Assembly: GCF_007994135.1 (NCBI RefSeq)
Contig: NZ_VLKF01000001.1
Location: 3,286,001 to 3,350,000, forward strand
DNA length: 64,000 bases
Source: Modestobacter roseus
GTDB lineage: Bacteria; Actinomycetota; Actinomycetes; Mycobacteriales; Geodermatophilaceae
Direction: 5' to 3'
Part shown: one piece after another, positions 227 through 58,544 of the stretch
Position numbering within the stretch: the first letter of the stretch is position 1
Layout of the letters: every line of letters starts with the position of its first letter
The notes under the pieces: model-generated
Database searches by the model: none
The model's input: only the letters and a program-made list of their open reading frames with translations
What the model was told of the DNA's origin: nothing
Position numbers and translations under genes: made by a program

Positions 227-289
227 TGGGAGGACCACCCTGCCCCCCGCCACTCGCAGGCTAGCGGCGGGACCCTGCAGAGTGGCCTG
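227..289 (+). repeat. Stop-anchored palindromic element, family A copy 1 (possible terminator)
   Basis: The element starts at the base after the TAG stop of the preceding frame with a GGAGGACC leader. Outer arms CCACCCTGC (about 236-244) and GCAGAGTGG (about 277-285) pair with one mismatch. It closely resembles the copy at 30865-30923, where the arms are CCCCTCTGC and GCAGAGGGG, so the C-to-A and G-to-T changes preserve a pair. Terminator function is inferred from position. Confidence 0.55.
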
Positions 290-1255
290 ATGCTGCTGCA
301 CCTGCGGATCTCCGTGCCGGTCGACCGGACGGCGGCCGTCCTCGACCTGATCGACGACTGCCCGGGGGTGGCCCACCTGGCGGTGCTCCCCGGTGGGTCG
401 CTGCGCCCGGCCGGTGACCTGTTCCTGGTCGACGTCGCCCGCGAGTCCGCCGACGCCCTCCTCACCGGGCTCCGCCGGCTGCACGTCGACACCGACGGCG
501 GCATCGCGATGGAGGCGGTCGACGCCGCGGTGTCCCGCCGGGCCGAGGAGGCCGAGCGGCTGGCCCCGGGCGACGGCGCGGACGCCGTGGTCTGGGAGCA
601 GGTGGTGCGCAACACCGACACCGACGCCGCCCTGTCGGTGTCCTACCTGGCCTTCCTCACCATCGCCACGCTGCTGGCCGCGGTGGCGATCGTGAACGAC
701 TCGGCGGTGCTGCTGATCGGCGCGATGGTGCTGGGCCCGGAGTTCGGCCCGCTGGCCGCCGTCGCGGTCGCCGTCGTGCACCGCCGCCGGCTGCTCGCCC
801 GCCGGGCGGTGACGGCGCTCGCCGTGGGGTTCGCCGTGGCCATCGCGGTCACCACGGTCGCGGTGCTGGCCGCGCGTGGGCTGGACTGGTTCGGGCCCGA
901 ACTGCTCGCCGAGGCCCGCCCGGCCACCGGGTTCATCACCCAGCCCGACCGCTGGTCGGTGGTGGTCGCGGTGCTCGCGGGGGTGGCCGGGGTGCTGTCG
1001 CTGACCTCCGCCCGCTCGGGCGCGCTCGTCGGGGTGTTCATCTCGGTGACCACCGTGCCGGCCGCCGCGGACATGGCGGTGGCGGTGGCGCTGGGTGGCG
1101 GCACCGAGTTCCGCGAGGCGGCGACCCAGCTGGGCATCAACCTGGTCGGCATCCTGGTCGCCGCGCTGCTCACCCTGCTGGTGCAGCGCGCACTGTGGCA
1201 CCGCGTCCCGGCCGCCGTCCCCCGGCTGCAGCGGGTGGGGCGCACCCGCGCCTGA
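290..1255 (+). CDS. DUF389 family membrane protein
   Basis: A 321-residue protein of the DUF389 (TIGR00341-like) family. The N-terminal ~95 residues form a soluble alpha/beta, ACT-like domain (LHLRISVPVDRTAAVLDLI). The rest holds about five to six hydrophobic segments, with conserved LLIGAMVLGPEFGPLAAVA and SLTSARSGALVGVFISVTTV. The family is found in bacterial inner membranes, with no agreed function. ATG 290 lies one base after the preceding hairpin and has no clear ribosome binding site, so the true start could be different. It is monocistronic here; the next gene is 48 bp downstream. Confidence 0.85.
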   Translation: MLLHLRISVPVDRTAAVLDLIDDCPGVAHLAVLPGGSLRPAGDLFLVDVARESADALLTGLRRLHVDTDGGIAMEAVDAAVSRRAEEAERLAPGDGADAVVWEQVVRNTDTDAALSVSYLAFLTIATLLAAVAIVNDSAVLLIGAMVLGPEFGPLAAVAVAVVHRRRLLARRAVTALAVGFAVAIAVTTVAVLAARGLDWFGPELLAEARPATGFITQPDRWSVVVAVLAGVAGVLSLTSARSGALVGVFISVTTVPAAADMAVAVALGGGTEFREAATQLGINLVGILVAALLTLLVQRALWHRVPAAVPRLQRVGRTRA

Positions 1256-1303
1256 CCGCCCCGGTCCGCCCGGGCGGGGAGGGCAGGAGGAAGATGTGGG
1301 CAC

Positions 1304-2614
1304 GTGACCCGCTCCGCCCCCGACGCGCCGGCCGCCCCCGCCGGCCCGGCCTCCTACGGCGCCGTCCTGGTCGGCACCGCGATCGTGCTCACCGGCTTCA
1401 ACCTGCGCACCGCGATCAACAGCGTCGGGCCCGTGCTCGCCGAGATCGAGCGTGGCCTGGGGATCTCCTCGGGGCTGGCCGGCCTGATCACCAGCCTCCC
1501 GCTGCTGTGCTTCGCCGTGATCGGCTTCGCCGGCCCGCCGCTGGCCGCCCGGTTCCGGGACGGGCACGTGCTGGCCGCCGCCCTGCTCATCATGGTCGTC
1601 GGTCTGCTGGTCCGGGTGTCGACCGACAGCGTGTGGGTCTTCCTGCCCGGCACGGTGGCCACGATGGTCGGCGGCGCGCTGGGCAACGTCCTGCTCCCGG
1701 GCCTGGTCAAGCGCTGGTTCCCCGGCCGCACCGGGCTGCTGGTCGGCGCCTACAGCACGGCGATGGCGATCGGCGGCGCCGTGGCCAGCTTCTCCGCCGC
1801 GCCGATCGCCGCGGCCGCCGGAGCCGACGGCTGGCGCTGGGCGCTGGGCATCTGGGCGGTGTTCGCCCTGGTGGCCGCCCTCCCCTGGCTGCTCGTGCCG
1901 GTGCGGCCCGGCGCCTCGCGGAGCACGCACACCGCGGTCCCGCTGCGGGCGCTCACCCGCAGCCCGTTGGCCTGGACGATGGCCGCCTTCTTCGGCCTGC
2001 AGGCGATGCAGGCCTACGTGATCATCGGCTGGACCGCCCAGTACCTGCGCGACCAGGGCATGTCCGCCGCGGTCGCTGGTTCGCTGGTCGGGCTGAACAC
2101 GCTCGTCGTCATCCCGCTCAACGCCCTCATCCCGCTGGGGGCGGTGCGCCAGCGGCTGCAGCGGCCGCTGCTGCTCGGCTTCCTGGCCTGCTACCTGACC
2201 GGCTGGACCGGGCTGCTGCTCGCCCCGCTGACCGTGCCGTGGTTGTGGGTCTCCCTGCTCGGCGTGGGCATGGGCAGCTTCGCCCTGGTGCTGGCGTTGT
2301 TCGGCCTGCGCGGCCGCACCCCGGAGTCGGTCTCGGCGCTGTCGACGATGGCACAGGGCTGGGGGTATGCGCTGGCCGGCGTCGGGCCGCTGCTCGTCGG
2401 GCTGTTCCGCGGGCTCACCGGCGGCTACACCGGCATGTTCGTGCTGGTCTACACCGGCGTCGCCCTGCTGGGGGTCACGGGGTGGGCGATCTGCCGGGAG
2501 CGCTACGTGGACGACGAGCTGCCCGGCCCGCCGCCGCGGGACACCGGCCTCGCGGCGGAGGTGGAGGTCGCCGGGGCGGAGCCGCCGATCGCCGTCCCCC
2601 GGGCCCCTCGCTAG
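1304..2614 (+). CDS. MFS transporter, CynX/NimT (YeaN-like) type
   Basis: A 436-residue protein with about twelve membrane helices and the family hallmark FNLRTAINSVGPVLAEIE near residues 29-46. CynX/NimT members export or import small organic ions and drugs (cyanate, 2-nitroimidazole); the substrate here is unknown. GTG 1304 was chosen because AGGAGG lies at 1285-1290; an ATG at 1294 is out of frame. The acidic tail after residue ~400 is cytoplasmic. The 3' end overlaps the convergent methyltransferase gene by 4 bp. Confidence 0.85.
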   Translation: MTRSAPDAPAAPAGPASYGAVLVGTAIVLTGFNLRTAINSVGPVLAEIERGLGISSGLAGLITSLPLLCFAVIGFAGPPLAARFRDGHVLAAALLIMVVGLLVRVSTDSVWVFLPGTVATMVGGALGNVLLPGLVKRWFPGRTGLLVGAYSTAMAIGGAVASFSAAPIAAAAGADGWRWALGIWAVFALVAALPWLLVPVRPGASRSTHTAVPLRALTRSPLAWTMAAFFGLQAMQAYVIIGWTAQYLRDQGMSAAVAGSLVGLNTLVVIPLNALIPLGAVRQRLQRPLLLGFLACYLTGWTGLLLAPLTVPWLWVSLLGVGMGSFALVLALFGLRGRTPESVSALSTMAQGWGYALAGVGPLLVGLFRGLTGGYTGMFVLVYTGVALLGVTGWAICRERYVDDELPGPPPRDTGLAAEVEVAGAEPPIAVPRAPR

Positions 2615-3384
2615 ACCGGCAGCTGCAGGGCCCGCAGCAGCTCCACCGCCCGGTCCCGGCGGAGCTCGGGCGAGCGGGTGAGCAGGGCGACCGCGACGAC
2701 GTACTCGTCCTCACCCGCCCAGCCGCGTCCCTCCGCGGTGAGCCGCGAGATGTGTTCACGCACCTTCGGCTCGCGGCTGTACACGCCGAACTCCAGGCCC
2801 ATGGCGAGGAAGTTCGCCACCCGGAAGCCCTGCTCCGCGGCCACGGCCAGGGTGCCGGCCGGGTCGGAGTAGCTGGGCAGGGCCACCAGCAGGTGGTCGA
2901 AACCGGCCTTGAGCAGCCGCAGGGCGAGGTCGTTGCCGTACCACCCGCCCCACAGCTCGGGCATGAGCAGCTCGCCGTCGGGCGCCGGGAGGTAGGGCGG
3001 GTTGGCGATCACCGTGCTGACCCGCTCGCCCCCGGCGGAGTCGGCCCAGGCGAAGAAGTCGCCGTGCTCGACGGTGTAGCGGTCGGCCACGCCGACCCCC
3101 TCGATCGTCTCCCGGGCGCGGGCCACCGACGACCCGCTGATGTCCGTGCCGTGCACCCGCAGGGCCGGCACGGCGCGGACGACGTGGGCGATGGCGCGCG
3201 CGTCGCCGCTGCCGAGCTCGGCCACGCCCTCCCGCTCCCAGGGCACCAGGGAGGCGTACTGGGTCAGCAGCAGCTGCACCCCGAAGGCGTAGTGCGCCGA
3301 CTCCTCGGCGCAGTCGAAGAAGCCGTCCGTCACGCGGTCGTCAGAGGCCGGCGGCAGCAGAACGGCAGTGTCCCGGGGGTCCAT
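2611..3384 (-). CDS. SAM-dependent methyltransferase with NPPY motif
   Basis: A 257-residue class I methyltransferase. The SAM-binding motif I is AELGSGDA (residues ~55-62), followed by an acidic residue in GTDISG (~79-84), and NPPY sits at 128-131. NPPY is the hallmark of enzymes that methylate an amide or exocyclic amino group (PrmC/RsmC/RlmG-like), so the substrate may be a protein glutamine or an RNA or DNA base. A dedicated PrmC N-terminal domain is not evident. ATG 3384 is the only good start. The substrate cannot be assigned. Confidence 0.75.
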   Translation of the reverse strand: MDPRDTAVLLPPASDDRVTDGFFDCAEESAHYAFGVQLLLTQYASLVPWEREGVAELGSGDARAIAHVVRAVPALRVHGTDISGSSVARARETIEGVGVADRYTVEHGDFFAWADSAGGERVSTVIANPPYLPAPDGELLMPELWGGWYGNDLALRLLKAGFDHLLVALPSYSDPAGTLAVAAEQGFRVANFLAMGLEFGVYSREPKVREHISRLTAEGRGWAGEDEYVVAVALLTRSPELRRDRAVELLRALQLPV

Positions 3385-3459
3385 GGCGGCCTCCCTACCC
3401 CGCAGGGCGGGCCGTCACCCCATCGCGGACGACTGTTCACCCACCGGTCGCGAACGAGG

Positions 3460-4062
3460 TCAGGCCAGCGGGGCGGCGTCGGGCCGCCGGGTCTCGGTCC
3501 GGCTGAAGTTGCGGAACGAGCGGGACGGCGTGGGGCCGCGCTGGTCCTGGTAGCGGGAGCCGTAGACCGACGAGCCGTAGGGGTGCTCGGCCGGTGAGGT
3601 CAGCTGGAACAGGCAGAGCTGGCCGATCTTCATCCCCGGCCAGAGCGTGATCGGCAGGTTGGCCACGTTCGACAGCTCGAGGGTGATGTGCCCGGAGAAC
3701 CCCGGGTCGACGAAGCCGGCGGTGGAGTGGGTGAGCAGGCCCAGCCGGCCCAGCGAGGACTTGCCCTCCAGCCGGGCGGCGAGGTCGTCGGGGATGCTCA
3801 CCACCTCGAGGGTGCTGCCGAGCACGAACTCCCCGGGGTGCAGCACGAACGGGTCCTCGCCGGTCGGCTCGACCAGCGTGGTCAGGTCGTCCTGCTGCTG
3901 GGCCGGGTCGATGTGGGTGTACCGGGCGTTGTTGAACACCCGGAAGTACCGGTCCAGCCGGACGTCGATGCTGGAGGGCTGCACCATCGCGTCGTCGTAG
4001 GGCTCGATGGCCAGCCGGCGGTCGGCCAGCGCGGCCCGGATGTCGCGGTCGGACAGCAGCAT
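3460..4062 (-). CDS. dcd: dCTP deaminase
   Basis: A 200-residue deoxycytidine triphosphate deaminase, which converts dCTP to dUTP in thymidylate synthesis. The N-terminus [12 protein letters not shown], the [11 protein letters not shown] segment (100-110), and HITLELSN with the catalytic glutamate at ~129 are all conserved. The homologous mycobacterial enzyme is bifunctional (deaminase plus dUTPase), so dUMP may be the product here; the sequence alone does not settle this. ATG 4062 was chosen over an upstream in-frame ATG because family members begin at this MLLSD. The gene diverges from the PAS/chemoreceptor pair. Confidence 0.95.
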
Positions 4063-4087
4063 GCCGCGGAGTCTAGGGACCGCGTGC

Positions 4088-4113
4088 CGGCTCGGGACCT
4101 TGGTCCCGAGCCG
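4088..4113. promoter_or_regulatory. 26-bp perfect palindrome resembling a DevR/DosR box
   Basis: Perfect 12-bp arms CGGCTCGGGACC and GGTCCCGAGCCG flank a central TT. The core GGGACCTTGGTCCC closely matches the GGGAC-centred palindrome recognised by DevR/DosR response regulators in actinobacteria. It lies between divergent dcd and the PAS-chemoreceptor pair, 95 bp before the PAS start. It could also be a hairpin, but its position between two divergent starts argues for an operator. Confidence 0.5.
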
Positions 4114-4208
4114 ACGCCTTCGGTTCAACACCGATTGCGCACTGCCGATGTACGCCTGACACGACGGAGTGCCGGAACGGCACTTGGATGGAAGCAGGCG
4201 GCGTGGTC

Positions 4209-4781
4209 ATGACACGTCCGGCGCCCAGCGCGCCGAGGACCGCACGGACGGCGGTGCGCCCGACGGGGGTCGAACGCACCTTCGCCGAGGACGAGCTGAT
4301 CGTCTCCAAGACGGACGCCCGAGGGGTGATCACCTACGCCAACGACGTCTTCCTGCGGGTCGGCGCGTACTCCCTGGACGAGGTGATCGGCCAGCCGCAC
4401 AACCTGATCCGCCACCCCGACATGCCCAAGGCCGTGTTCAAGCTGCTCTGGGACACCCTGGCCAGCGGCAACGAGCTGTTCGCGTACATCAACAACCTGG
4501 CCGCGGACGGGGCCAACTACTGGGTGCTCGCGCACGTGACGCCCTCCCGCGACGCCGCCGGCCGGGTCGTCGGCTACCACTCCAACCGCCGCCGCCCGGC
4601 GCCCGGCGGCATCGCCGCCGTCCGCCCGCTCTACGAGCAGCTGCTCGCCGAGGAGCGGCGGCACCCGAACGGCCGGGCCGCGGTCGAGGCCTCCTCGGCG
4701 CTGCTGGGCCGGCTGGTCGCCGAGCAGGCCGCGAGCTACGAGGACTTCATCTGGTCGGTCATCTGCGAGAAGGGCCGCTGA
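4209..4781 (+). CDS. Aer-like PAS domain protein
   Basis: A 190-residue soluble protein. Residues ~20-130 form a PAS fold of the Aer type: [17 protein letters not shown], then the diagnostic [14 protein letters not shown] and [12 protein letters not shown]. In Aer-type proteins this domain binds FAD or haem and reports redox state or oxygen; the cofactor here cannot be told. The C-terminal ~60 residues are helical and have no output domain. ATG 4209 was preferred over ATG 4188 because AGGCGG precedes it by 7 bp. It ends two bases before the chemoreceptor gene, which suggests the two proteins work as sensor and signaller. Confidence 0.85.
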
Positions 4782-4783
4782 CC

Positions 4784-5734: not shown

Positions 5735-5750
5735 CCGGGGGGCTGACGCG

Positions 5751-5781
5751 GCACCACGAGCGCTTGCTACGCTCGTGGTGC
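5751..5781. terminator. Perfect 12-bp inverted repeat between chemoreceptor gene and tRNA
   Basis: GCACCACGAGCG (5751-5762) and CGCTCGTGGTGC (5770-5781) are perfect inverted copies with a 7-nt loop. The hairpin lies 16 bp after the chemoreceptor stop and 17 bp before the tRNA 5' end, so it may terminate upstream transcription. It also spans a possible tRNA -10 (TACGCT 5768-5773, with TGACGC 5744-5749 as a weak -35 at 18 bp), so an operator-like role is possible. Confidence 0.55.
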
Positions 5782-5798
5782 AGGGCGTGAGCCCCGCT

Positions 5799-5869
5799 GC
5801 GGGTGTAGTTCAATGGTAGAACATCAGCTTCCCAAGCTGACAGTGCGAGTTCGATTCTCGTCACCCGCT
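5799..5869 (+). tRNA. tRNA-Gly (anticodon CCC)
   Basis: The acceptor arms GCGGGTG (5799-5805) and CACCCGC (5862-5868) pair perfectly. The anticodon stem TCAGC/GCTGA encloses the loop TTCCCAA, giving anticodon CCC, which reads GGG glycine codons. The T arm GCGAG/CTCGT encloses TTCGATT. The 3' CCA is not encoded. It is the only tRNA gene seen in the window. Confidence 0.97.
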
Positions 5870-5928
5870 CTCCTCTCCCCCCGGGCGCCCGGGCTGCGCC
5901 TCCTGGCCCGGTCCGCTTGGCTGGGTCG

Positions 5929-16914: not shown

Positions 16915-17094
16915 ATGACCGAACCCAGCGACAGCGGCTACCACGACTCCCCCGCCACCTCCGACCCCGACGGCGACCTGGTCGACGGCACCCCCGGCCA
17001 CGACCGCGGGGACGGCGGCGAGAAGGACACCGTGCTGCTCACCGACGACGAGGCGCAGCGCGAGGACTCGGTCGCCCGCCCCGCCAACGACTGA
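16915..17094 (+). CDS. Small acidic disordered protein
   Basis: A 59-residue, Asp/Gly/Ser-rich protein (MTEPSDSGYHDSPATSDPDG) with no hydrophobic core. ATG 16915 is 33 bp after the acyl-CoA dehydrogenase stop. It ends at TGA 17094, immediately before a family A palindromic element. It resembles in composition the small proteins at 10216 and 56628. Function unknown. Confidence 0.55.
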   Translation: MTEPSDSGYHDSPATSDPDGDLVDGTPGHDRGDGGEKDTVLLTDDEAQREDSVARPAND

Positions 17095-17095
17095 C

Positions 17096-17179
17096 GAAGG
17101 ACCCCTCTGCCCCTTCCCCGGCTCCCTCGCAGGGGCCCGCGCGGAGCGTGCGAGGCGTGGGGGGGCGAGGGGGTCCTCC
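17096..17179. repeat. Family A palindromic element, copy 2, between convergent genes
   Basis: It begins GAAGGACCCCTCTGCCCC one base after the stop of the small acidic gene. Its far end, GAGGGGGTCCTCC, abuts the stop codon of the convergent response-regulator gene. The outer GGACCCC/GGGGTCC ends pair, so it can serve both strands. At 84 bp it is the longest copy, with extra sequence in the centre. Confidence 0.6.
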
Positions 17180-17785
17180 TCAGATCCAGCCGTGCCGGCG
17201 CGCGGCCTCCACGGCCGCGTGCCGGTTCGACGCGCCCAGCTTCGCCGCGGCCGCCGACAGGTAGTTGCGCACGGTGCCCGGCGACAGGTGGGCGCGGACG
17301 GCGATCTCCTCGACCGGGGCGCCGCTCGCGGCGAGCTCGAGGACATCGGCCTCCCGCGGGGTCAGCGGGCTGTCCCCGGCGCTGATCGCCTCCGCGGCGA
17401 GCTCGGGGTCGACGTAGCGCCCACCCCGGTGCACCGTGCGCACGACGTCGCCCAGCACGGCCGCCCCCACCGTCTTGGGCAGGAAGCCCCGGACCCCGGC
17501 CTCCAGCGCCCGCTTGAGGTGCCCGGGCCGGCCGTGGCCGGTGACGATGACCAGCCCGCAGCCGGGCAGCACCGTGGTCAGCTCCCCCGCGACGCTGATC
17601 CCGTCCCGGTCGGGCATCTGCAGGTCCAGCACGGCGACGTCCGGCGTGTGCAAGCGGGCCATGGCCAGCGCCTCGGCGCCGGAGGACGCCTGGGCGACCA
17701 CCTCGAGGTCGTCCTCCAGCCCGAGCAGGGCGGCGAACGCCGAGCGGACCAGGTTCTCGTCGTCGGCCAGCAGCACGCGGATCAT
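17180..17785 (-). CDS. LuxR/NarL-type response regulator
   Basis: A 201-residue two-component regulator. The receiver domain (1-115) has acidic residues DDE at 8-10, phosphoacceptor D54 (VLDLQMPD), T84 and K104 (FLPKT). The LuxR helix-turn-helix spans ~137-195 (LTPREADVLELAASG). It is similar to DesR. Its ATG overlaps the stop of the sensor kinase by 4 bp. It probably regulates the ABC exporter genes at the head of the same operon. Confidence 0.92.
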   Translation of the reverse strand: MIRVLLADDENLVRSAFAALLGLEDDLEVVAQASSGAEALAMARLHTPDVAVLDLQMPDRDGISVAGELTTVLPGCGLVIVTGHGRPGHLKRALEAGVRGFLPKTVGAAVLGDVVRTVHRGGRYVDPELAAEAISAGDSPLTPREADVLELAASGAPVEEIAVRAHLSPGTVRNYLSAAAAKLGASNRHAAVEAARRHGWI

Positions 17786-20817: not shown

Positions 20818-20948
20818 GTCGACCTCCTCGGTGCGCCGCCGGCCGCCGTCGGGCCGGGCTGTCGGACGCACCCCTCACGTTGCCGCCCGGACCCGGCTGG
20901 CACAGGTGCCGCCGTGCACCTCTTCGCGGCCTCGGCGCACGGGTGGGG

Positions 20949-20964
20949 CATGACACGTGTCATG
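20949..20964. promoter_or_regulatory. Perfect 16-bp palindrome CATGACACGTGTCATG
   Basis: CATGACACGTGTCATG is a perfect palindrome with no spacer in the 304-bp gap between the divergent exporter operon and the glycosylase-like gene. It stands 131 bp before the exporter start and 158 bp before the glycosylase start. This looks like an operator for a dimeric regulator of either unit. The binding protein is not known. Confidence 0.5.
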
Positions 20965-20981
20965 GGCGCGCGATGCGCCCG

Positions 20982-21100
20982 GTGCGCGGTGCCTCGGGTG
21001 CGCGGTGCCTCGGGTGCGCGGTGCCTCGGGTGCGCGGTGCCTCGGGTGCGCGGTGCCTCGGGTGCGCGGTGCCTCGGGTGCGCGGTGCCTCGGGTGCGCG
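20982..21100. repeat. 16-bp tandem repeat, seven full copies
   Basis: The unit GTGCGCGGTGCCTCGG is repeated perfectly seven times from 20982 to 21093, then a 7-bp partial copy follows. The period is not a multiple of three, so every frame reads through only as a 16-residue periodic string, and the array is intergenic. It ends 21 bp before the start codon at 21122. Such arrays vary in copy number by slippage and could tune the spacing or strength of the adjacent promoter. Confidence 0.95.
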
Positions 21101-21121
21101 CACCCGACCTACCCTGGCCCG

Positions 21122-24107: not shown

Positions 24108-24164
24108 CAAGGAACCCGTCCTCCTCACCCCGCACACGCTCGGGGCGAGCCTCGGGACGGGGCC
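24108..24164 (+). repeat. Family A palindromic element, copy 3
   Basis: Fifty-seven bases starting CAAGGAACCCGTCC one base after the phosphatase stop and ending GGGACGGGGCC. CCCGTCC (24115-24121) pairs with GGACGGG (24155-24161). The inner part CTCACCCC and GGGGCGAG also pairs with one mismatch. It is the most diverged leader in the set, with AAGGAACCC instead of AAGGACCCC. Confidence 0.65.
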
Positions 24165-30605: not shown

Positions 30606-30866
30606 ATGCCCTCCAAGACCGTGACCGTCGGCTCCGCCGTCGGCCTGCACGCCCGCCCGGCTGCGCTCATCGCCGAGGCCGTCACCAAGTCCGGGGTGCC
30701 GGTCACCCTGGCCGGCCCCGGCGGCAATCCCGTCGACGCCGGGTCGCCACTGATGATCATGACGCTCGGTGCCAAGCAGGGCACCGAGGTCACCGTCAGC
30801 AGCGACGACGAGGCGGTGCTCGACCGGATCGCCGGCATGGTCGAGAGCGACCTCGACGCCGAGTGA
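30606..30866 (+). CDS. ptsH: HPr phosphocarrier protein
   Basis: An 86-residue HPr. It carries phosphate from enzyme I to the EIIA domain. Phospho-H15 lies in GLHARPAA, and S46 lies in AGSPLMIMTLGAK, so regulatory serine phosphorylation is possible in principle. ATG 30606 is preceded by GAAGGCAGG. It is the last gene of the fru operon. A family A element overlaps its stop codon. Confidence 0.96.
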   Translation: MPSKTVTVGSAVGLHARPAALIAEAVTKSGVPVTLAGPGGNPVDAGSPLMIMTLGAKQGTEVTVSSDDEAVLDRIAGMVESDLDAE

Positions 30867-30923
30867 AGGACCCCTCTGCCCCCCACCGCTCGCACGCTCG
30901 CGGCGGGGCCCTGCAGAGGGGCC
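30865..30923 (+). repeat. Family A palindromic element, copy 4
   Basis: GAAGGACCCC begins inside the ptsH stop codon (TGAAGGACCCC). The outer arms CCCCTCTGC (30871-30879) and GCAGAGGGG (30913-30921) pair perfectly. The centre CCGCTCGCACGCTCGCGG is also self-complementary in part. With copy 1 it forms a subfamily defined by the CTCTGC/GCAGAG stem. Confidence 0.7.
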
Positions 30924-33529: not shown

Positions 33530-34957
33530 TCAGAAGGTGAGCGCGGTGCCGGGGTCGTGCAACAGCGCGCCGACGTCGGCGAGGAACCGCGACCCCAGCT
33601 CGCCGTCGATGACCCGGTGGTCGAACGACAGCGCCAGCGTGGTCACCTGCCGGACGGCGAGCTTCCCCTTGTGCGCCCAGGCCATCTCCCGCACGGCACC
33701 GAACGCCAGGATCGCCGACTCACCCGGGTTGAGGATCGGCGTGCCGGTGTCGACGCCGAACACGCCCACGTTGGTGATGGTGATCGTGCCGCCGGTCATC
33801 TCGGCGGGCTGGGTCTTCCCGGCCCGCGCCGTCGCGGTGAGGTCGGTGAGCGCCCCGGCCAGCTCGGGCAGCGACAGCCGGCCGGCGTCCTTGATGTTCG
33901 GCACGACCAGGCCGCGCGGGGTGGCGGCGGCGATGCCCAGGTTCACCGCGCCGTGGACGACGATCTCCTGCGCCGCCTCGTCCCAGCTGCTGTTCACCAT
34001 CGGGTGCCGTCCGACCGCGAGCAGGAGCGCCTTGGCCACGAACAGCAGCGGGCTCACCTTGACCTCGGCGAGCTCCGCGCGGGCGGCCAGCCGCTGGCGC
34101 AGCTTCATGGTGCGGGTGACGTCGACGGTGAGGAACTCGGTGACGTGCGGCGCGGTGAACGCGCTCCGCACCATCGCCGCGGCGGTGGCCTTGCGCACCC
34201 CCTTGATCGGGATCCGGGTCTCGCTCCCGGTTTCGGCGCCGAAACCCGGCCGGGGTTCGGCGCCGAAACCGGGACGGGGTTCGGCGCCGGGAGCTGGGGT
34301 CGCCCGGGCGGCGTCGACGTCGGCGCGGGTGATCACCCCACCGTCCCCGGTGCCGGTGATGGTGGCCAGGTCGATGCCGAGGTCCTTGGCGTACTTGCGC
34401 ACCGGCGGCTTGGCCAGCGGGCGCAGCGCACCGGCGCCTGGGGTGGCCGCGGTCGCCGGCGCCGCTGCGGCGGCGCGGTCGGCCTGTGCCTCCGCGGCCC
34501 GGCCGGCCTCCAGCCCGCCGTGCCGCATCGGCTTGACCGCGGTGTCCGGCGCGGTGGCCAGCAGCGGCGGGCGGTCACCGCCGCTGCCGTAGTCGGCCTC
34601 GGCGGGGACGGGCGCCGCCCGGCGGGGACGACGGCGCGGCTCGGTGGTCCGCGGCCCGTAACCCACCAGGACGGCGGTGCGCCCCTCGTCCGCGGGGGCC
34701 TCCGCGGATCCACCGCCGGTGTCGATGGTGATGATCGGCGCACCGACGTCGACCGTCGTCCCGGCCTCGTGCAGCAGCTCGACGACGGTGCCGGCGAACG
34801 GCGAGGGCAGCTCGACGGCGGCCTTGGCCGTCTCGACCTCGCACAACGGCTGGTTGACCGCCACGGTGTCGCCCACCGTGACCAGCCAGGAGAGGATCTC
34901 GCCCTCGGTGAGCCCCTCGCCGACGTCGGGCAGCCGGAACTGGCGCAGCTCGGCCAT
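33530..34957 (-). CDS. Dihydrolipoamide acyltransferase (E2) of a 2-oxoacid dehydrogenase complex
   Basis: A 475-residue E2. The lipoyl domain (1-80) carries K45 in VETAKAAVEL. An Ala/Pro linker, a peripheral-subunit-binding domain (~172-212, LAKPPVRKYAKDLGID) and a second linker follow. The catalytic domain (~245-475) has SFDHRVIDGE with H447 and D451. It transfers acyl groups to CoA. The second linker contains the repeated palindrome described separately. Its ATG overlaps the E1beta stop by one base, consistent with coupled translation. Confidence 0.93.
   Translation of the reverse strand: MAELRQFRLPDVGEGLTEGEILSWLVTVGDTVAVNQPLCEVETAKAAVELPSPFAGTVVELLHEAGTTVDVGAPIITIDTGGGSAEAPADEGRTAVLVGYGPRTTEPRRRPRRAAPVPAEADYGSGGDRPPLLATAPDTAVKPMRHGGLEAGRAAEAQADRAAAAAPATAATPGAGALRPLAKPPVRKYAKDLGIDLATITGTGDGGVITRADVDAARATPAPGAEPRPGFGAEPRPGFGAETGSETRIPIKGVRKATAAAMVRSAFTAPHVTEFLTVDVTRTMKLRQRLAARAELAEVKVSPLLFVAKALLLAVGRHPMVNSSWDEAAQEIVVHGAVNLGIAAATPRGLVVPNIKDAGRLSLPELAGALTDLTATARAGKTQPAEMTGGTITITNVGVFGVDTGTPILNPGESAILAFGAVREMAWAHKGKLAVRQVTTLALSFDHRVIDGELGSRFLADVGALLHDPGTALTF
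34223..34300 (-). repeat. Palindrome family B inside the E2 coding sequence
   Basis: The 18-bp perfect palindrome GGTTTCGGCGCCGAAACC at 34229-34246 is followed by two shortened copies, 34253-34270 and near 34277-34291, at a 24-bp spacing. On the coding strand the unit encodes the 8-residue repeat RPGFGAEP in the linker before the E2 catalytic domain (residues ~218-242). The same palindrome occurs between genes at 63905-63924. Confidence 0.85.
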
Positions 34958-41130: not shown

Positions 41131-41187
41131 GGCCCTGTCCGGGGGCTCACCCCGAACGTGCGAGGGGTGAGCGGGACGGGGTCCTTC
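41131..41187 (-). repeat. Family A palindromic element, copy 5
   Basis: On the minus strand it reads GAAGGACCCCGTCCCGCTCA from one base after the NlpC/P60 stop codon. Its length is 57 bases. The inner stem CTCACCCC/GGGGTGAG is perfect here, while the outer CCCCGTCC/GGACAGGG stem has one mismatch. The same element is followed by the 19-bp hairpin at 41074-41115. Confidence 0.7.
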
Positions 41188-41188: not shown

Positions 41189-42313
41189 TCAGCCGGCGAT
41201 GCGGCGCATCGCGGTGATGCTGCCCATCACGTCGATGCTGGCGACCTTGACGACGTCGCCGGAGGTCGGCGCGTGCACCATCTGGCCGTTGCCGATGTAG
41301 ATGCCGATGTGGCTGACCGGGGAGTAGAAGGCGATCAGGTCGCCCGGCTGCAGCTCACCCCGGGACACCGCGCGCCCCATGCTGGCCTGGGCCCGGCTGG
41401 AGTGCGGCAGCGAGACACCGGCGGCGGCGTAGGCGTACTGCACCAGACCGGAGCAGTCGAACGACCCCGGACCGGCGGCGGCCCACACGTAGGGCTTGCC
41501 CTGCTGGGCCATGGCGGTGCTGACCGCCGTCCCGGCGGCGCCGCTGGAGGCGACGACCGGCGCGGACGGGGCCTGCGCGGCCGGAGCCGCGCCGCGGGCG
41601 GCGCTGCCGCCCCCACGGGAACCGGAGCCGGAGCCGGACGCCTGCTGTGCCGCGGCGGCCTCGGCGGCGTGCCGGCGCTCGGCCTCGGCCCGCGAGGCGG
41701 CCTGCTCCGCGGCGGAGAGGCGCTCGTACAGCGCCTGGTACTCGGCGATCTGCTTGTTCAGGTCCGTGCGCTGCGCCTCGACCTGGTCGAGCTGGGCCTG
41801 CGCCTCGGTGGCGGCGGCCTCGGCCGCCGCCTTGGCCTCGGTGGCCTGCTCGTCGGCCGTGACGGCCTCGCCGAGGATGCCGTTGTTGTGGTCGGCGATC
41901 GAGTCCAGCGTGCCGACCCGGTCCATCAGCTCGTCGGCGGACTCGCTGGTGAGCATCGCCTGCAGGGTGCTCAGCTGGTCGCCGGTGTAGGCGCTGCGGG
42001 CGACCTCGCGGACCCGGTCGCGGGCCCCGGCGAGGGCGGCCTCGGCGGCCGCGACCTGGGCGGTGGCGGCGTCGACCTCGGCCTGCTTGGTGTCCAGCTC
42101 GACGCGGGCGTCGTTGAACTGCTCGGTGACGACCTCGAGGTCGTGCGCGCGCTCGGCGACCAGGGTGGCGGCCTCGGCGGAGGTGGTGGGCTCGGCCGCG
42201 GCGGGCGCGGGGGCGAGCAGCGGGGCGGCGACGAGGGCGCCGGCGGCGATGAGGGTGACGACGGCCCGGCGGGAGACGGACCCGCGACGGGCAGGGTTGA
42301 GCGAACTCGCCAT
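41189..42313 (-). CDS. Secreted NlpC/P60 peptidoglycan endopeptidase, RipA-like
   Basis: A 374-residue secreted protein with a signal peptide ending near APAAAEP (~residue 40). A long coiled coil (~45-215) and a Ser/Gly/Ala linker precede the NlpC/P60 domain (~255-374). The catalytic residues are C287 (SFDCSGLV), H335 (SPVSHIGIY) and H347 (MVHAPTSG). RipA-like enzymes cleave within the peptidoglycan stem peptide during division. The start is ATG 42313 after GAAAGGA. Expression is likely controlled by the c-di-AMP riboswitch upstream. Confidence 0.93.
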   Translation of the reverse strand: MASSLNPARRGSVSRRAVVTLIAAGALVAAPLLAPAPAAAEPTTSAEAATLVAERAHDLEVVTEQFNDARVELDTKQAEVDAATAQVAAAEAALAGARDRVREVARSAYTGDQLSTLQAMLTSESADELMDRVGTLDSIADHNNGILGEAVTADEQATEAKAAAEAAATEAQAQLDQVEAQRTDLNKQIAEYQALYERLSAAEQAASRAEAERRHAAEAAAAQQASGSGSGSRGGGSAARGAAPAAQAPSAPVVASSGAAGTAVSTAMAQQGKPYVWAAAGPGSFDCSGLVQYAYAAAGVSLPHSSRAQASMGRAVSRGELQPGDLIAFYSPVSHIGIYIGNGQMVHAPTSGDVVKVASIDVMGSITAMRRIAG

Positions 42314-42342
42314 GTTCGGCGGGTGGTCCTTTCTTCCAACGT

Positions 42343-42490
42343 GCCGCCTACCGAGTTAGCTGACGGGTTCGGATGGGAAGACACCCGGCACCTGCGGCCC
42401 GGCTGGGCCGCGCAGTGCTTCACCCCAGTGCTGCGGTGGGTCCCCGGTCCCCTGGCCCGCCGTCGTGCGCGGGCCGTGGAGTTCGGCGGC
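42343..42490 (-). promoter_or_regulatory. c-di-AMP (ydaO/yuaA) riboswitch
   Basis: The transcript contains CCGAACCCGTCAGCTAACTC followed by GGTAGGCGGC, the highly conserved 3' part of the ydaO family, and GGGGACC and GGGGTGAA segments in the middle. P1 forms from GCCGCC (42485-42490) and GGCGGC (42343-42348). ydaO riboswitches usually turn off cell-wall hydrolase genes when c-di-AMP is high. It ends about 30 nt before the NlpC/P60 start codon. Identification is by recalled consensus, not by a covariance search. Confidence 0.85.
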
Positions 42491-42545
42491 GGTCTGGTCG
42501 GTCGCCACCGAGGGGTGGCTGAGGTGCCCGTCCGGACCGCCGCCC

Positions 42546-52386: not shown

Positions 52387-52418
52387 TCCCGTCCCCGACC
52401 ACGCTGTCGGGGACGGGA
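52387..52418 (-). terminator. Hairpin downstream of pckG
   Basis: TCCCGTCCCCGA (52387-52398) and TCGGGGACGGGA (52407-52418) are perfect 12-bp arms with an 8-nt loop. It lies 55 bp past the pckG stop on the minus strand, near the MFS start, and probably ends pckG transcription. Confidence 0.6.
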
Positions 52419-52472
52419 CACCGTCCGGACCGGACCGCGACGGCGACGCTGCCGCGCGGACCGGGGTCTTCG

Positions 52473-54287
<1,815 letters not shown>

Positions 54288-54391
54288 GGCGTCTCCTCTG
54301 GGGTACGCCGGTGCGGGCCACACCGGCGCTGAGCTGGACGGCTGGGGAGCGCCGACCCGGCCACGTCGGTGGGGCCGGGGCGGATCGCACG

Positions 54392-54420
54392 AGACTAGCC
54401 GCTGATTTCAGTACGTATAA
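54392..54420 (-). promoter_or_regulatory. Promoter of pckG
   Basis: On the minus strand TTATAC (rc of 54415-54420) and TAGTCT (rc of 54392-54397) are spaced 17 bp, about 105 bp before the start codon. The AAGACGTCTT palindrome just upstream could be an operator shared with the divergent ene-reductase gene. Assignment is by pattern only. Confidence 0.55.
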
Positions 54421-54480
54421 GACGTCTTTTCGAAGTGTGACCCAGCTCGCCCCGGGATGCCCCGGGACGAATGACCTGTT

Positions 54481-55668
54481 GTGCGCCCCGTGAGCGAACC
54501 GACCACCCCCGCCCTGCTGCAGCCGCTGACCCTGCGCGGGGTGACGCTGCCCAACCGCCTCGCCGTCGCACCGATGTGCCAGTACTGCGTCACCGACGGC
54601 GTCGTCGGCGACTACCACCTGGTGCACCTGGGCCGGTTCGCGCTCGGCGGGTTCGGCCTGGTCGTGGTGGAGGCCACCGGGGTCACCGCCGAGGGTCGGA
54701 TCAGCCCCGGCGACGTCGGCCTGTGGAACGACGAGCAGGTGCCCGGCCTGGCCCGGGTGGCCGCCTTCCTGCGCGACCACGGCAGCGTGCCGGCGATCCA
54801 GCTGGCGCACGCCGGCGGCAAGGCGAACACCCTGCGCCCGTGGGACGGCAACGGCCAGGTGACCGCCGAGACCGCCCGGCCCGGCGACGCGCCCTGGACC
54901 CCGGTCGCCCCCAGCGCGGTCCCGATGGGCGAGGGCTGGACGGCGCCGCACCCGCTGTCGGTGGCGGAGCTGGCCGGCGTCCGCGACGCGTTCGTCGCCG
55001 CCGCCCGGCGGGCGCTGGCCGCGGGCTTCCAGGTCGCCGAGGTGCACGCCGCGCACGGCTACCTGCTCAACGAGTTCCTCTCCCCGCTGACCAACCTGCG
55101 GGACGACGAGTACGGCGGCTCGCTGGAGAACCGGATGCGCTTCCCGCTCGAGGTGGTCGCCGCCGTCCGCGAGGTGTGGCCGGCCGACCTGCCGCTGATG
55201 GTGCGGGTCTCCGCCGTCGACGCCACCCGGGAGGGGACGTCGCTGGCCGACACCGTCACCTTCGCCCGCGAGCTGAAGGCGCTCGGCGTGGACGCGATCG
55301 ACGTCTCCGGCGGTGGCATCGGCCCCGGCTGGGAGCACCCGATCGGCTACGGGTACCAGGTGCCCTTCGCGGCGGCGATCCGCGAGCAGGCCGGGATCCC
55401 GACGATGGCCGTGGGGCTGCTCGTCGACCCGCAACAGGCCGACACCGTCGTCGCCACCGGGCAGGCGGACCTGGTCGCCGTCGCCCGCGAGGCGCAGGAC
55501 GACCCGAACTTCGCCGTCCACGCCGCCCGCGCGCTGACCGGCTCCCACGACGCCTACCCGGTGCAGGCCGGCCCGCGGCTGGCCTCCCGGGAGCGGCTGC
55601 TGCAGCGGCTGGGGCCGTGGACCGGCCCCGACCCGGTCCGGGTCGAGCAGCCCGCCGCCCAGGCCTGA
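54481..55668 (+). CDS. NADH:flavin oxidoreductase / old yellow enzyme (YqjM-like)
   Basis: A 395-residue TIM-barrel flavoenzyme. PMCQY near residue ~31 marks the YqjM thermophilic-like class. Ligand segments are IQLAHAGGKAN, EVHAAHGYLLNEFLSP and GGIGPGW. It reduces activated alkenes with NAD(P)H. GTG 54481 is used; GTG 54490 is nearly as good, and neither has a strong ribosome binding site. A family A palindrome follows its stop. Confidence 0.92.
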   Translation: MRPVSEPTTPALLQPLTLRGVTLPNRLAVAPMCQYCVTDGVVGDYHLVHLGRFALGGFGLVVVEATGVTAEGRISPGDVGLWNDEQVPGLARVAAFLRDHGSVPAIQLAHAGGKANTLRPWDGNGQVTAETARPGDAPWTPVAPSAVPMGEGWTAPHPLSVAELAGVRDAFVAAARRALAAGFQVAEVHAAHGYLLNEFLSPLTNLRDDEYGGSLENRMRFPLEVVAAVREVWPADLPLMVRVSAVDATREGTSLADTVTFARELKALGVDAIDVSGGGIGPGWEHPIGYGYQVPFAAAIREQAGIPTMAVGLLVDPQQADTVVATGQADLVAVAREAQDDPNFAVHAARALTGSHDAYPVQAGPRLASRERLLQRLGPWTGPDPVRVEQPAAQA

Positions 55669-55669
55669 C

Positions 55670-55726
55670 GAAGGACCCCGGCCCCCTCACCCCTCGCGAG
55701 CTCGGGGCGAGCCTCGGGCCGGGGCC
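55670..55726 (+). repeat. Family A palindromic element, copy 6
   Basis: It reads GAAGGACCCCGGCCCCCTCA one base after the ene-reductase stop and ends GGGCCGGGGCC, adjacent to the TAG stop of the convergent SRPBCC gene. The outer stem CCCCGGCC/GGCCGGGG is perfect. Compared with copy 7 it differs by a G:C pair in place of a T:A pair, a compensated change. Confidence 0.8.
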
Positions 55727-56217
55727 TAACGGCCGTAGGCGGGGCCGGTGGCGGCCAGGAAGTCGTCCCAGCTGCCCGGCGCGGGGTGGCCGCCCACCTC
55801 GGCGGCGAGCTTGTCCAGGTACCAGTGCCAGCCGAGGGTGTAGTCGGTGAGCTCGGTGCCGGCCGGGAAGACCTGGGTGAACAGCAGGACGGTCTGCCCG
55901 TCCGCCCGGGTCAGGTCCAGCTCGACCCGCCAGGCCTCGTCGGTCAGCCACTCGACGACCAGCCGGTGCGGCGGGGCGCACTCGACGATGCGCATCGGCT
56001 CGCCGACCAGCTCCTCCTCCTGCGTCATGGTGAAGGTGCCGGTGCCACCGACGGACCGCTCGCCGTCGTAGGTGCCGATCCAGCGGGCCATCCGGTCGGG
56101 CTCGGTGAGCGCAGCCCACACGTCCTCGACCGGGTCGGGCCAGCTGCGGCGGAACTGCAGCCGCACGCCCTCGGGCACCTCACGGACCTGCCCCAGCCGC
56201 TCGTCCTGCGTCGTCAT
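55726..56217 (-). CDS. SRPBCC/AHSA1-family protein
   Basis: A 163-residue Activator of Hsp90 ATPase-like (AHSA1) domain protein. It has RSWPDPVEDVWAALTEPDRMARWIG, RLVVEWLTDEAWRVELDL and YTLGWHWYLDKLAAEVGG. Together with an ArsR gene that overlaps its start (ATGA) this is a common actinobacterial pair. The protein binds hydrophobic ligands; the target is unknown. Confidence 0.88.
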   Translation of the reverse strand: MTTQDERLGQVREVPEGVRLQFRRSWPDPVEDVWAALTEPDRMARWIGTYDGERSVGGTGTFTMTQEEELVGEPMRIVECAPPHRLVVEWLTDEAWRVELDLTRADGQTVLLFTQVFPAGTELTDYTLGWHWYLDKLAAEVGGHPAPGSWDDFLAATGPAYGR

Positions 56218-56543
56218 CGACCGTCCTCCTGCCTCCGGGCCCGCCGGCCGCGGGCGATCTCGGTGTCCAGCGCGTCCAGGCGCTGCGCCCAGAGCCGGCG
56301 ATAGGGCGCCAGCCAGGCGTCGAGCTCGGCGAGCGGGGCGGGGTCGAGCGCGTACACCCGGCGCTGCCCCTCGGCGCGGACCCGCACCAGCCCGGCTTCC
56401 CGGAGCACCCGCAGGTGCCGGCTGACCGCCGGACGGCTCACCGGGAAGCGCTCGGCGAGCTCCCCGGCACCCTGCTCACCGGCGGCGAGCAGGGCGACGA
56501 TCTGCCGCCGGGTGGGGTCGGCCAGGGCTCCGAGCGCCTCCAT
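56214..56543 (-). CDS. ArsR-family transcriptional regulator
   Basis: A 109-residue winged-helix repressor. Helix-turn-helix residues lie in the SRPAVSRHLRVLREAGLVRV segment, preceded by ALADPTRRQIVALLAAGEQGAGE. No clear metal-binding cysteines (the alpha-3 CxCxxC motif) are present, so it is probably not metal-sensing. It heads the pair with the AHSA1 gene. The perfect palindrome ACACATGTGT lies directly upstream of its start. Confidence 0.9.
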   Translation of the reverse strand: MEALGALADPTRRQIVALLAAGEQGAGELAERFPVSRPAVSRHLRVLREAGLVRVRAEGQRRVYALDPAPLAELDAWLAPYRRLWAQRLDALDTEIARGRRARRQEDGR

Positions 56544-56544
56544 G

Positions 56545-56573
56545 ACACATGTGTAACAGAGGTTTTACGTAAA
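56545..56573. promoter_or_regulatory. Palindromes upstream of ArsR gene
   Basis: ACACATGTGT (56545-56554) and TTTACGTAAA (56564-56573) are perfect 10-bp palindromes, 10 bp apart, one base beyond the ATG on the regulator's upstream side. The AT-rich sequence stands out. They are good candidates for an ArsR autoregulatory operator and its -10/-35 region. Confidence 0.5.
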
Positions 56574-56627
56574 CGTCCAGTTACGCACGACGGTTCGGAC
56601 GCCGGCCGCCCGGGAACGGCGGGGTGC

Positions 56628-56864
56628 ATGACCGTCACCGATCCCGGCACCCCCGACCCGCTCAACGACCCCCGGACCACCCAGGCCGACCCCGGCGCCC
56701 TCGGTGAGGGGGAGGACCTCGCCTCGACCGAGGACGACGCCGTCGCCACCGGGGACGACGAGCTCGCCACCTCCCGCACCGAGGCCGACGAGGCCGGCGG
56801 CGGCGACGTCACCGGCGGGTTCGCCGGCGCGGTGGGCGAGGCGCCCACCAGCGACCGGACCTGA
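56628..56864 (+). CDS. Small acidic disordered protein
   Basis: A 78-residue acidic, Asp/Glu/Thr-rich protein (MTVTDPGTPDPLNDPRTTQA) ending in GAVGEAPTSDRT. No hydrophobic helix; likely disordered. ATG 56628 was selected. It is the third of a compositionally similar set of small acidic proteins in the window, with 10216 and 16915. Confidence 0.6.
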   Translation: MTVTDPGTPDPLNDPRTTQADPGALGEGEDLASTEDDAVATGDDELATSRTEADEAGGGDVTGGFAGAVGEAPTSDRT

Positions 56865-56974
56865 GACGGACCGGTCCGCACCACCCCCGCCCGTGCTGCC
56901 GAAATCGGCGTGCGCCGGCCCAGCGTCGTTCCGTAACCTCCCCGGGCCCCGTCCCGACGCCCAGGAGGCTCCCC

Positions 56975-57475
56975 GTGCAGGCCCTGTCCGAGGCCGCGAT
57001 CCGCCGCTCGCTGGTCAACTGCTCGCGCAGCGAGGCCGCGGCGATGACGCTCCCCCGCGACATCGACGAGTTCGACTGGACCGCGGCCGACGTGCTCGGC
57101 TGGCGCGACCCGAAGGCCGAACTGCGCGGGTACCTGGTGCACGAGCAGGGCGGCGACCTGGTCGGTCTCGCCCTGCGGGCCGCGGACACGAAGATGTCCA
57201 GCCGCCGGTCGGCGATGTGCCTGCTCTGCCACACCGTGCAGTCGGCCGACGCGATCTCGCTGTTCACCGCCCGCCGGGTGGGCGAGGCGGGCCGCAACGG
57301 CAACACGGTGGGCACCTACGTCTGCGCCGACCTGCGGTGCGCCGGCCGGGTGCAGGCCGTCCCGCCCTCGGCCCAGCACCTGGACGAGGAGCTGCAGGCC
57401 CTCGCCGTCGAGGAGCAGGCCGAGGGCCTGCGGCAGCGACTGGCGGCGTTCACCGCCGACGTGCTGCGCCACTGA
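56975..57475 (+). CDS. FBP domain-containing protein (FusB-like treble-clef)
   Basis: A 166-residue protein of the FBP/EF-G-binding group. The C-terminal treble-clef zinc site is CLLCHT...YVCADLRCAGR (~90-129), four cysteines. Homologous FusB-type proteins bind elongation factor G and release it from the ribosome; actinobacterial copies confer fusidic-acid tolerance in some cases. GTG 56975 follows AGGAGG. Function here is inferred from the zinc motif. Confidence 0.78.
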   Translation: MQALSEAAIRRSLVNCSRSEAAAMTLPRDIDEFDWTAADVLGWRDPKAELRGYLVHEQGGDLVGLALRAADTKMSSRRSAMCLLCHTVQSADAISLFTARRVGEAGRNGNTVGTYVCADLRCAGRVQAVPPSAQHLDEELQALAVEEQAEGLRQRLAAFTADVLRH

Positions 57476-57498
57476 TCCCCGGGGACGACGATGGGCCG

Positions 57499-58479
57499 GT
57501 GATCAAGACCCCGCTGACCCGCTGGTTCGACCTCGACACCCCGGTCTTCGGGGCCCCGATGGCCGGCGTGGCCGGCGGCGAGCTGGCCCGGGCGGTGTCG
57601 CTCGGCGGCGGGCTGGGGATGATCGGCGTCGGCGCTGCGACACCGCCGGAGTGGATCACCGAGCAGGCCCGGCTGTCCACCGAGGCCGACGTCTCCTTCG
57701 GCGTCGGCCTGATGGCCTGGGTGCTCGCCGACCGCCCGGAGCTGCTGGCCGCCACGGTGGCCGCCGAGCCGGCGCTGGTCTCGGTCTCCTTCGGCGACCC
57801 GGCACCGTTCGTCGGTCCGCTGCACGACGCCGGCATCGCCGTCGCCACCGCGGTGAACAGCCGCGCCGACCTGGACCGGGCGCACGCGGCGGGGGCCGAC
57901 GTGATCGTCGCCCAGGGCACCGAGGCCGGCGGCCACACCGGGCACCGGTCGACCCTTCCGCTGCTGCAGGAGGTGCTGGCCGCCACCGACCGGCCGGTGC
58001 TCGCCGCAGGCGGGGTGGCCACCGGGGCCGGGCTGGCCGCCGTGCTGGTGGCCGGGGCCGCCGGGGCGTGGATCGGCACCCCGTTCCTGGCCTGCACGGA
58101 GGCCACCACCTCGCCGGCGGCGCGCGAGCGGGTCCGCGCCGCGAGCGGCGACGACACCGTGCTGACCAGCGCCTTCGACATCGCACAGGGGCTGGCGTGG
58201 CCGGACCGCTGGCCCGGCCGGGCGCTGGTCAACGACTTCACCGAGACCTGGCACGGCCGCGAGGCCGAGCTGCGCGGAGACACCCGGGCGGCCGAGTGGG
58301 TGCGCCGCGCCCGCGCCGACGGCGACCTCGCCGCGGCACCGGTCTACGCCGGGGAGTCCGTCGGGCTGGTCACCGCGGAGGAGTCGGCCACCGACGTCGT
58401 CCGGCGACTGACCACCGACGCACGGACGGCGCTGGAGCGCGCCCCCCGTCTGCTCGGCCGGGCGAACACGATTCCTTGA
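57499..58479 (+). CDS. Nitronate monooxygenase-family flavoprotein
   Basis: A 326-residue TIM-barrel FMN enzyme of the 2-nitropropane dioxygenase/nitronate monooxygenase family. It begins TPLTRWFDLDTPVFGAPMAGVAGG and contains DVIVAQGTEAGGHTGH with the catalytic histidine, and GGVATGAGLAAVLVAGAAGAW. It may detoxify alkyl nitronates or be a related flavin oxidoreductase. The start is GTG 57499. A family A element lies immediately after its end. Confidence 0.88.
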   Translation: MIKTPLTRWFDLDTPVFGAPMAGVAGGELARAVSLGGGLGMIGVGAATPPEWITEQARLSTEADVSFGVGLMAWVLADRPELLAATVAAEPALVSVSFGDPAPFVGPLHDAGIAVATAVNSRADLDRAHAAGADVIVAQGTEAGGHTGHRSTLPLLQEVLAATDRPVLAAGGVATGAGLAAVLVAGAAGAWIGTPFLACTEATTSPAARERVRAASGDDTVLTSAFDIAQGLAWPDRWPGRALVNDFTETWHGREAELRGDTRAAEWVRRARADGDLAAAPVYAGESVGLVTAEESATDVVRRLTTDARTALERAPRLLGRANTIP

Positions 58480-58487
58480 GCAGTGCC

Positions 58488-58544
58488 GGCCCCGTCCGGA
58501 GGCTCGCCCCGAGCTCGCGAGGGGTGAGGGGGACGGGGTCCTTC
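58488..58544 (-). repeat. Family A palindromic element, copy 7
   Basis: On the minus strand the element reads TGAAGGACCCCGTCCCCC, with the first bases being the DsbA/FrnE stop codon itself. It is 57 bases long and differs from copy 6 at three positions, two of which are a paired change in the CCCCGTCC/GGACGGGG outer stem. It is also located after the convergent nitronate monooxygenase gene. Confidence 0.8.

Follow-up and report, generated by a model that had tools for sequence, protein, structure and literature searches.

We found that the genome of Modestobacter roseus carries a high-copy family of short palindromes that sit at stop codons. Seven elements of this kind had been described in a window of 64,000 nucleotides (nt) with 75% GC (assembly GCF_007994135.1, contig NZ_VLKF01000001.1, positions 3,286,001 to 3,350,000), in an original prediction that attached them to the ends of unrelated genes. 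We find a real, clade-specific palindrome family that is anchored to stop codons and is mobile or copy-replacing; it behaves like repetitive extragenic palindromic (REP) elements but is not a REP by tag or transposase. The family has a defined structure, it abuts stop codons, and species differ both in which orthologous stops are occupied and in which copy is found at the same stop. The reading that we favor, with moderate confidence, is that of a mobile or copy-replacing, non-autonomous palindrome of the Geodermatophilaceae that is kept at stop codons as a hairpin in the 3' untranslated region.

A covariance model, R1, was built from seven copies, the window copies at 30865 and 229 among them, and searched against the whole 4.5-Mb genome. 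The genome holds about 90 copies, with 92 rows for R1 at E up to 1 and 91 rows for a second model, R2, at E up to 0.01, each count taking in two partial nested pieces; the original proposal that the element spreads through the genome is supported. For counts of genomic context we used the 86 of the 92 R1 rows that reach at least 35 bits (a gyrB-stop copy, 3658214, is among the six left out), and genes were called with a simple codon-usage caller, not taken from curated annotation. We found that 78 of the 86 copies lie outside called genes and that 65 of these 78 start within –3 to +2 nt of the same-strand stop codon of the preceding gene, 50 of the 78 exactly one base after it. When copies were placed at random in their own gap and orientation, the mean number anchored was 12.1 and the maximum in 20,000 simulations was 24; hits to a covariance model are thus enriched at stop codons genome-wide, the opposite of what would have refuted the original prediction. 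Public records collected with no requirement for a stop codon (80 stretches used of at least 119, several of them from Modestobacter; 102 of 105 model rows used) gave the same picture, with 58 of 90 copies anchored and 9.4 expected. Where the gap offers 30 or more free bases, 38 of 50 copies still abut the stop in the own genome and 38 of 68 do so in the public set, compared to 2.2 and 2.7 expected. The preceding gene is on the copy's own strand in 72 of 78 cases.

The stops used by anchored copies in both sets (106 TGA, 14 TAG and 5 TAA) match the background of all called genes of the public records (458 TGA, 55 TAG and 11 TAA; chi-square p = 0.45); therefore, the word TGA is not the anchor. 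The base between TGA and the GAAGG of the leader also varies (C 18, A 13, G 12 and T 9). Counted by hand from the offsets, pairing in the hairpin begins 3–8 nt from the stop's first base. For 14 nested-looking public copies that do not abut a stop, the upstream same-strand stop is 8 to 247 nt away, within 33 nt in 12 of the 14. Some copies lie between divergent genes or inside genes. By eye, copies between divergent genes at L246, L288 and own-genome position 825111 have ends that adjoin putative TAGGCT/TAGCGT-like –10 boxes.

The unit is about 57–60 nt long and consists of a GAAGGACC leader, an outer stem, an unequal inner loop, an inner stem, a short loop and a GGCC end. Subtype I is 59 nt long with a CTCGCnnGCTCG-like loop, and subtype II is 57 nt long with GTCCTCCTCACCCC against GGGGCGAGCCTCnGGAC. 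Past the 3' end the sequence continues as GTTCC in 19 of 86 copies and as GTTC or GCTC in 23 of 86; the longer form reads about GTTCCAGCACGTCACC, and a GTTCCAGCACGTCACC-like extension is present in about a quarter of the copies. Aligning 93 matches, 90 of them distinct, shows pairing in 91.1% of the stem cells and a covariation score of 0.337, as compared to 0.114 in shuffled and at most 0.075 in slid alignments. Stem cells changed on both sides number 245, compared to 83.2 in shuffles; a less telling measure, the number of stem pairs with a change on both sides, is 12 of 19 versus 10.0 shuffled, with 20 of 500 shuffles as high. Bases of the leader and of the inner loop are conserved though unpaired. 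When single copies were folded, some were clearly better than shuffles and others were not (L008 was no better). Against Rfam, no copy of the family passed the gathering score, the window giving only a tRNA and a cyclic di-AMP (c-di-AMP) riboswitch, and a stretch of 201 nt around one copy gave three weak matches (E up to 10), all unrelated.

The model search is positive in all 23 genomes of the genus, with 17 to at least 145 matches each, and negative in each of the 16 genomes searched from other families of the order. The word TGANGAAGGACC is present in 109 of 112 genomes of Geodermatophilaceae and is clearly above its reversed control in 7 of 12 genera (g1, g18, g19, g20, g21, g27 and g28), with a moderate excess in g25 and no excess in g22–g24. 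When one genome per species was scanned, at least 119 stretches matched; of the 80 loci listed, 74 bear a Geodermatophilaceae name or, in one case, Frankiales, and the remaining 6 are without a model match. With one copy as query, a phage search gave no match and a plasmid search gave a single weak 35-nt match to a Streptomyces plasmid. Among the open-licence papers listed by our literature searches, none describes this family or reports actinobacterial repeats anchored at stops; a text search of PMC9686282 gave only CRISPR mentions and unrelated uses of the word 'repeat'.

To compare occupancy between species, we followed orthologous stops through the genus. The stop of the FMN oxidoreductase gene is occupied in 3 of 19 genomes (11 of 30 loci were left out as paralogs, at no more than 55% identity), and all 16 empty stops are TGA. 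The stop of the DsbA gene is occupied in 7 of 23 genomes, where one of the seven (G009) is a shortened copy recognized by eye and not by the model, and 5 of the 16 empty stops are TAG. An ABC transporter gene (by Pfam), which adjoins gyrB, has an occupied stop in 5 of 20 genomes, the states being read by eye, and on a two-gene tree this distribution requires five parsimony changes from an empty root. At this stop, 9 of 15 empty sites are TAG and the occupied ones are TGA or TAA, a contrast that includes close relatives (G014 versus G005 and G001; G013 versus G010). Across all compared gene ends, we see a difference in stop codon between orthologs at 6 of the 21 ends that have a copy and at 8 of the 237 that have none (Fisher p = 0.0003; 19 of 277 ends whose stop had moved were left out). 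By eye, the stretch downstream of the ABC transporter stop in most of the 20 species (L374–L393) also contains a ParS-like palindrome, GTTCCACGTGGAAC.

Two related species can carry different copies at the same stop. We chose by eye seven stops filled in both G010 and G013 in the same orientation. Of the 43 rows of one model search, 37 were used, leaving out six weak minus-strand rows, most of which overlap a better match. At four of the seven pairs, the copies are 73–86% alike while the 194 nt upstream are 93–97% alike; random copies of one genome are on average 82% alike. Between convergent genes, the copy can face either gene. At the stop of gyrB (by Pfam), a copy is found within 45 nt in 47 of 70 genomes of the family, in eight of nine genera, and 36 copies are anchored leader-first (70 of 98 genomes with a match were examined; 56 of 59 model rows were used). 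Thus, the gyrB stop is a long-lived site. By eye, locus L442 (G098), after gyrB, has several copies nested in each other past one stop codon. In some species (L113, L115, L116, L380 and L381), an unrelated palindrome, CCACCAAAAGC...-like, is seen by eye past the orthologous stops that we compared in the genus, perhaps a second family found near stops.

In the window, where seven single elements had been described, we read a family member in the expected orientation at all seven places, and the whole-genome R1 search has a match at each (E = 2.3e-15 to 5.5e-5); those at 30865 and 229 match by construction, because R1 was built partly from both. Six of the places hold one element, and the seventh, 17096–17179, is a composite: a complete minus-strand copy at 17120..17179 lies directly after the stop codon (17180–17182) of a convergent response-regulator gene (17180–17785, minus strand), and a plus-strand remnant of about 18 nt, leader and first arm only (17096..17113, read by eye and with no separate model match), lies 1 nt past the TGA (17092–17094) of a small plus-strand gene without a Pfam match. 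The response regulator that had been listed among the genes served therefore belongs to the minus copy, and the other genes named (HPr, phosphatase, NlpC, ene-reductase and DsbA) were confirmed by Pfam. The copy at 229..287 (plus strand) is 2 nt past a TAG (224–226) that ends a gene without a Pfam match, and the next called start codon is 2 nt beyond the copy. Four copies are 57 nt long and of subtype II: one at 24108..24164 (plus strand), 1 nt past the TGA of a tyrosine phosphatase gene; one at 41131..41187 (minus strand), 1 nt past the TGA of an NlpC/P60 gene; one at 55670..55726 (plus strand), 1 nt past the TGA of an FMN oxidoreductase gene of the ene-reductase type, its far end sharing 1 nt with the stop codon of a convergent AHSA1-domain gene; and one at 58488..58544 (minus strand), whose leader is overlapped by the TGA of the DsbA gene and which has a convergent neighbor's stop 8 nt away. 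The copy at 30865..30923 (plus strand) is of subtype I, 59 nt long with a GTTCCAG 3' extension, and the TGA of the HPr gene overlaps its leader. A leader and hairpin do recur at many stops, but the leader is not as uniform as had been stated: it is not always AAGGACCCC, since the element placed at 227 has GGAGGACCACC and the one at 24108 has CAAGGAACCC.

The window also contains other features. Rfam matches identify a tRNA gene at 5799–5869 (plus strand) and a c-di-AMP (ydaO/yuaA) riboswitch at 42329–42498 (minus strand), just upstream of the NlpC/P60 gene called at 41189–42313. A 16-nt unit, GTGCCTCGGGTGCGCG, forms a head-to-tail array at 20941–21116, and a different palindromic repeat, GGTTTCGGCGCCGAAACC-like, is present at two distant places, 34213–34321 and 63890–63950.

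How might such a distribution come about? New copies would arrive at, or survive only at, the junction just after or inside the stop codon, leader first. The mRNA would thus form a long GC hairpin, with pairing that begins 3–8 nt from the stop's first base. By analogy, this hairpin most likely acts as REP hairpins do in enterobacteria, as a 3' boundary against 3' exonucleases and/or with an effect on the ribosome at termination, and we prefer such a boundary to the role of a terminator with a U-tract. In the public records, where copies occur within copies, the leader motif is found in the 30 nt ahead of 21 of 101 copies, compared to 8 in a control stretch. Flanks that are complementary over at least 8 nt are not clearly above permuted flanks (5 of 86 versus 2.5 in the own genome; 6 of 101 versus 4.1 in the public set). 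Near 1500–1610 of L062 and L063, two identical copies lie in a duplicated stretch of 1.15 kb that is 87% identical, apparently antisense within a gene that, judged by eye, resembles the HNH endonuclease type.

Several observations weigh against a mobile or copy-replacing palindrome that is kept as a functional hairpin. No mobilizer was found: the REP-associated Y1 transposase (RAYT, PF01797) is found in 0 of 23 genomes of the genus, in a search whose control matches 5 of 14 known genomes; no IS1182 transposase is over the cut-off in the same 23 genomes, with weak partial matches in 6; and a strict search of 3.2 Mb for a longer, split form of the element yielded 7 matches, of which none was convincing. 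Direct repeats of at least 5 nt, as a target duplication would leave, flank 10 of 86 own copies versus 9.3 permuted and 18 of 101 public copies versus 14.3. Nesting in the own genome is not above the control (leader motif 4 of 86 versus 5), and single plain cases exist. The other three of the seven G010/G013 pairs are 100%, 93% and 88% alike, with upstream sequences 97%, 97% and 86% alike, and 7 of the 47 gyrB copies are in the opposite orientation. Gain is told from loss by parsimony, and three of the five copies at the ABC transporter stop (G014, G009 and G013) have a common unusual loop; one old insertion, or fewer gains with later losses, is therefore possible there. Other gene ends also have predicted stems near the stop, at a median offset of 4 nt as compared to 2 nt for copies, although these stems are weaker (–29.4 versus –34.3 kcal/mol; shuffled –28.3); folding alone thus does not single out the family. 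Finally, the effects on mRNA stability and on the ribosome are proposed by analogy.

In a bolder reading, insertion is directed to translation-termination sites as such, at any type of stop, leader first, often rewriting the stop and repeatedly hitting the same gene ends. This is the boldest reading that the data allow, and we put it forward tentatively, as possible but unlikely. Because none of the DNA-level words that we tested explains the anchoring, a mechanism that works through the terminating ribosome or its mRNA would be consistent with it; one example is copying onto an mRNA that has been cut at the stop. The main alternative to targeted insertion is selection for hairpins that abut stops, and both are compatible with the data. 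We consider it very improbable that the element targets a DNA word, for instance TGA or CTAG, that coincides with gene ends. Empty orthologous stops are often TAG (9 of 15 for the ABC transporter gene and 5 of 16 for DsbA), as such a target might predict; however, 5 of the 9 empty TAGs of the ABC transporter gene are GTAG and not CTAG, the empty FMN oxidoreductase stops are without exception TGA, the stop usage of anchored copies equals the background, and a CTAG is seldom found within 10 nt of a copy (at 3 ends in the 86 own copies and at 6 in the 101 public copies). Stop usage, the words at empty stops and the rarity of CTAG thus leave both CTAG and TGA unsupported as target words.

Two functional proposals of the original prediction, a terminator and an RNA-level regulator, are weakened by these data. 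Pfam was run on 40 proteins: 10 come from the window, namely 2 neighbors and 8 whose stop has a copy or remnant, and 30 are from the 52 eligible anchored proteins outside it. Because one gene is represented twice, the 38 proteins with a copy at the stop stand for 37 genes. The marked genes include the FtsZ, citrate synthase, RecR, YebC, HemD, Fur, RsgA and Lsr2 families and have no common function. A regulator that recognizes the GAAGGACC leader and hairpin and thereby controls a set of transcripts would account for the conservation of unpaired leader and inner-loop bases; however, with no function common to these genes and with the occupancy of orthologous stops shifting between species, we regard it as highly unlikely. 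Terminators of the actinobacterial type, hairpins without a U-tract that form one sequence family and are selected to end transcription right past the gene, have a low but real probability. The hairpins are strong and lie at gene 3' ends, convergent neighbors are slightly over-represented (61 of 150 versus 180 of 572 background gene ends, p = 0.04), and by eye another hairpin takes the same position after the FMN oxidoreductase stop in several species without a copy of the family. However, the convergent excess is weak, the conserved leader and loop are unnecessary for termination, and there is no U-tract in the sense direction, with a mean of 1.16 T in the 8 nt past the copy and 0 of 86 copies with five or more, which weakens the classical terminator in particular. 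In addition, the next start is closer than 40 nt at 14 of 35 anchored co-directional copies, which leaves little room for a promoter and disfavors a strict terminator at those sites. Purely selfish insertions that arrive at random and are removed by selection unless they lie just outside coding sequence, with neither function nor targeting, would explain why the marked genes share no function, why copies are nested in copies in the public records and why some copies lie between divergent genes or inside genes. We nevertheless consider this improbable, since copies are not spread over the free gap (the 38 of 50 that abut a stop despite at least 30 free bases, versus 2.2 expected), the leader-first orientation dominates (72 of 78) and the gyrB stop is occupied in eight of the nine genera examined.

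The mobile or copy-replacing palindrome that we favor can be set beside known systems. REP elements, which occur in enterobacteria and pseudomonads with RAYT transposases, are short extragenic palindromes of high copy number; they fold into RNA hairpins, and some lie soon past stop codons (RepRanger, PMC12306157; PMC3733652; PMC2817692). Their length is given as 20–40 bp (PMC3733652). Like REPs, the family is a high-copy extragenic palindrome with an RNA hairpin, about 90 copies and covariation. In contrast to REPs, it has no conserved GTAG or CGTC tag, its ends being GAAGG and GGCC; no Y1 transposase was found in any of the 23 genomes that carry it; its unit is longer (57–60 nt versus 20–40 bp) with a two-part stem; and a single exact stop offset is present in 50 of 78 copies. 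IS1272, of the IS1182 family, transposes by stem-loop replacement, in which palindromes are replaced without target duplication (PMC5678879). Different copies at the same stop and the lack of a target duplication resemble this mechanism; however, no IS1182 transposase is over the cut-off in the 23 genomes with the family, and the palindrome neighboring the ABC transporter stop persists in four of the five species with a copy (the sequence stretch of the fifth ends too early). Stem-loop replacement therefore resembles the exchange of copies and not their arrival at the ABC transporter stop. The family also differs from a miniature inverted-repeat transposable element of a known insertion sequence in having no target-site duplication above permuted flanks. 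The attC site of integrons is a folded palindrome of similar length directly past a gene's stop codon, with the core-site words RYYYAAC and GTTRRRY. The family resembles attC in being a folded palindrome of such a length right after a stop codon; its copies are dispersed and not in cassette arrays, however, and by eye these core-site words were not seen at copy ends. Like intrinsic terminators, the family forms a stable hairpin at gene 3' ends, and it differs from them in having no U-tract, a conserved leader and loop, and presence or absence that differs between species.

Most of what is known about short palindromic repeats near gene ends comes from REPs, which have a transposase of their own. 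The family that we describe, in GC-rich actinobacteria, is present in high copy number without a Y1 transposase, is placed at stops with nearly single-base sharpness and differs in occupancy between close species. The same gene and the same stop with a hairpin, without one, or with different hairpins are natural experiments on the effect of a hairpin set against the terminating ribosome, and the family offers a way to ask how mobile DNA comes to occupy the ends of genes.

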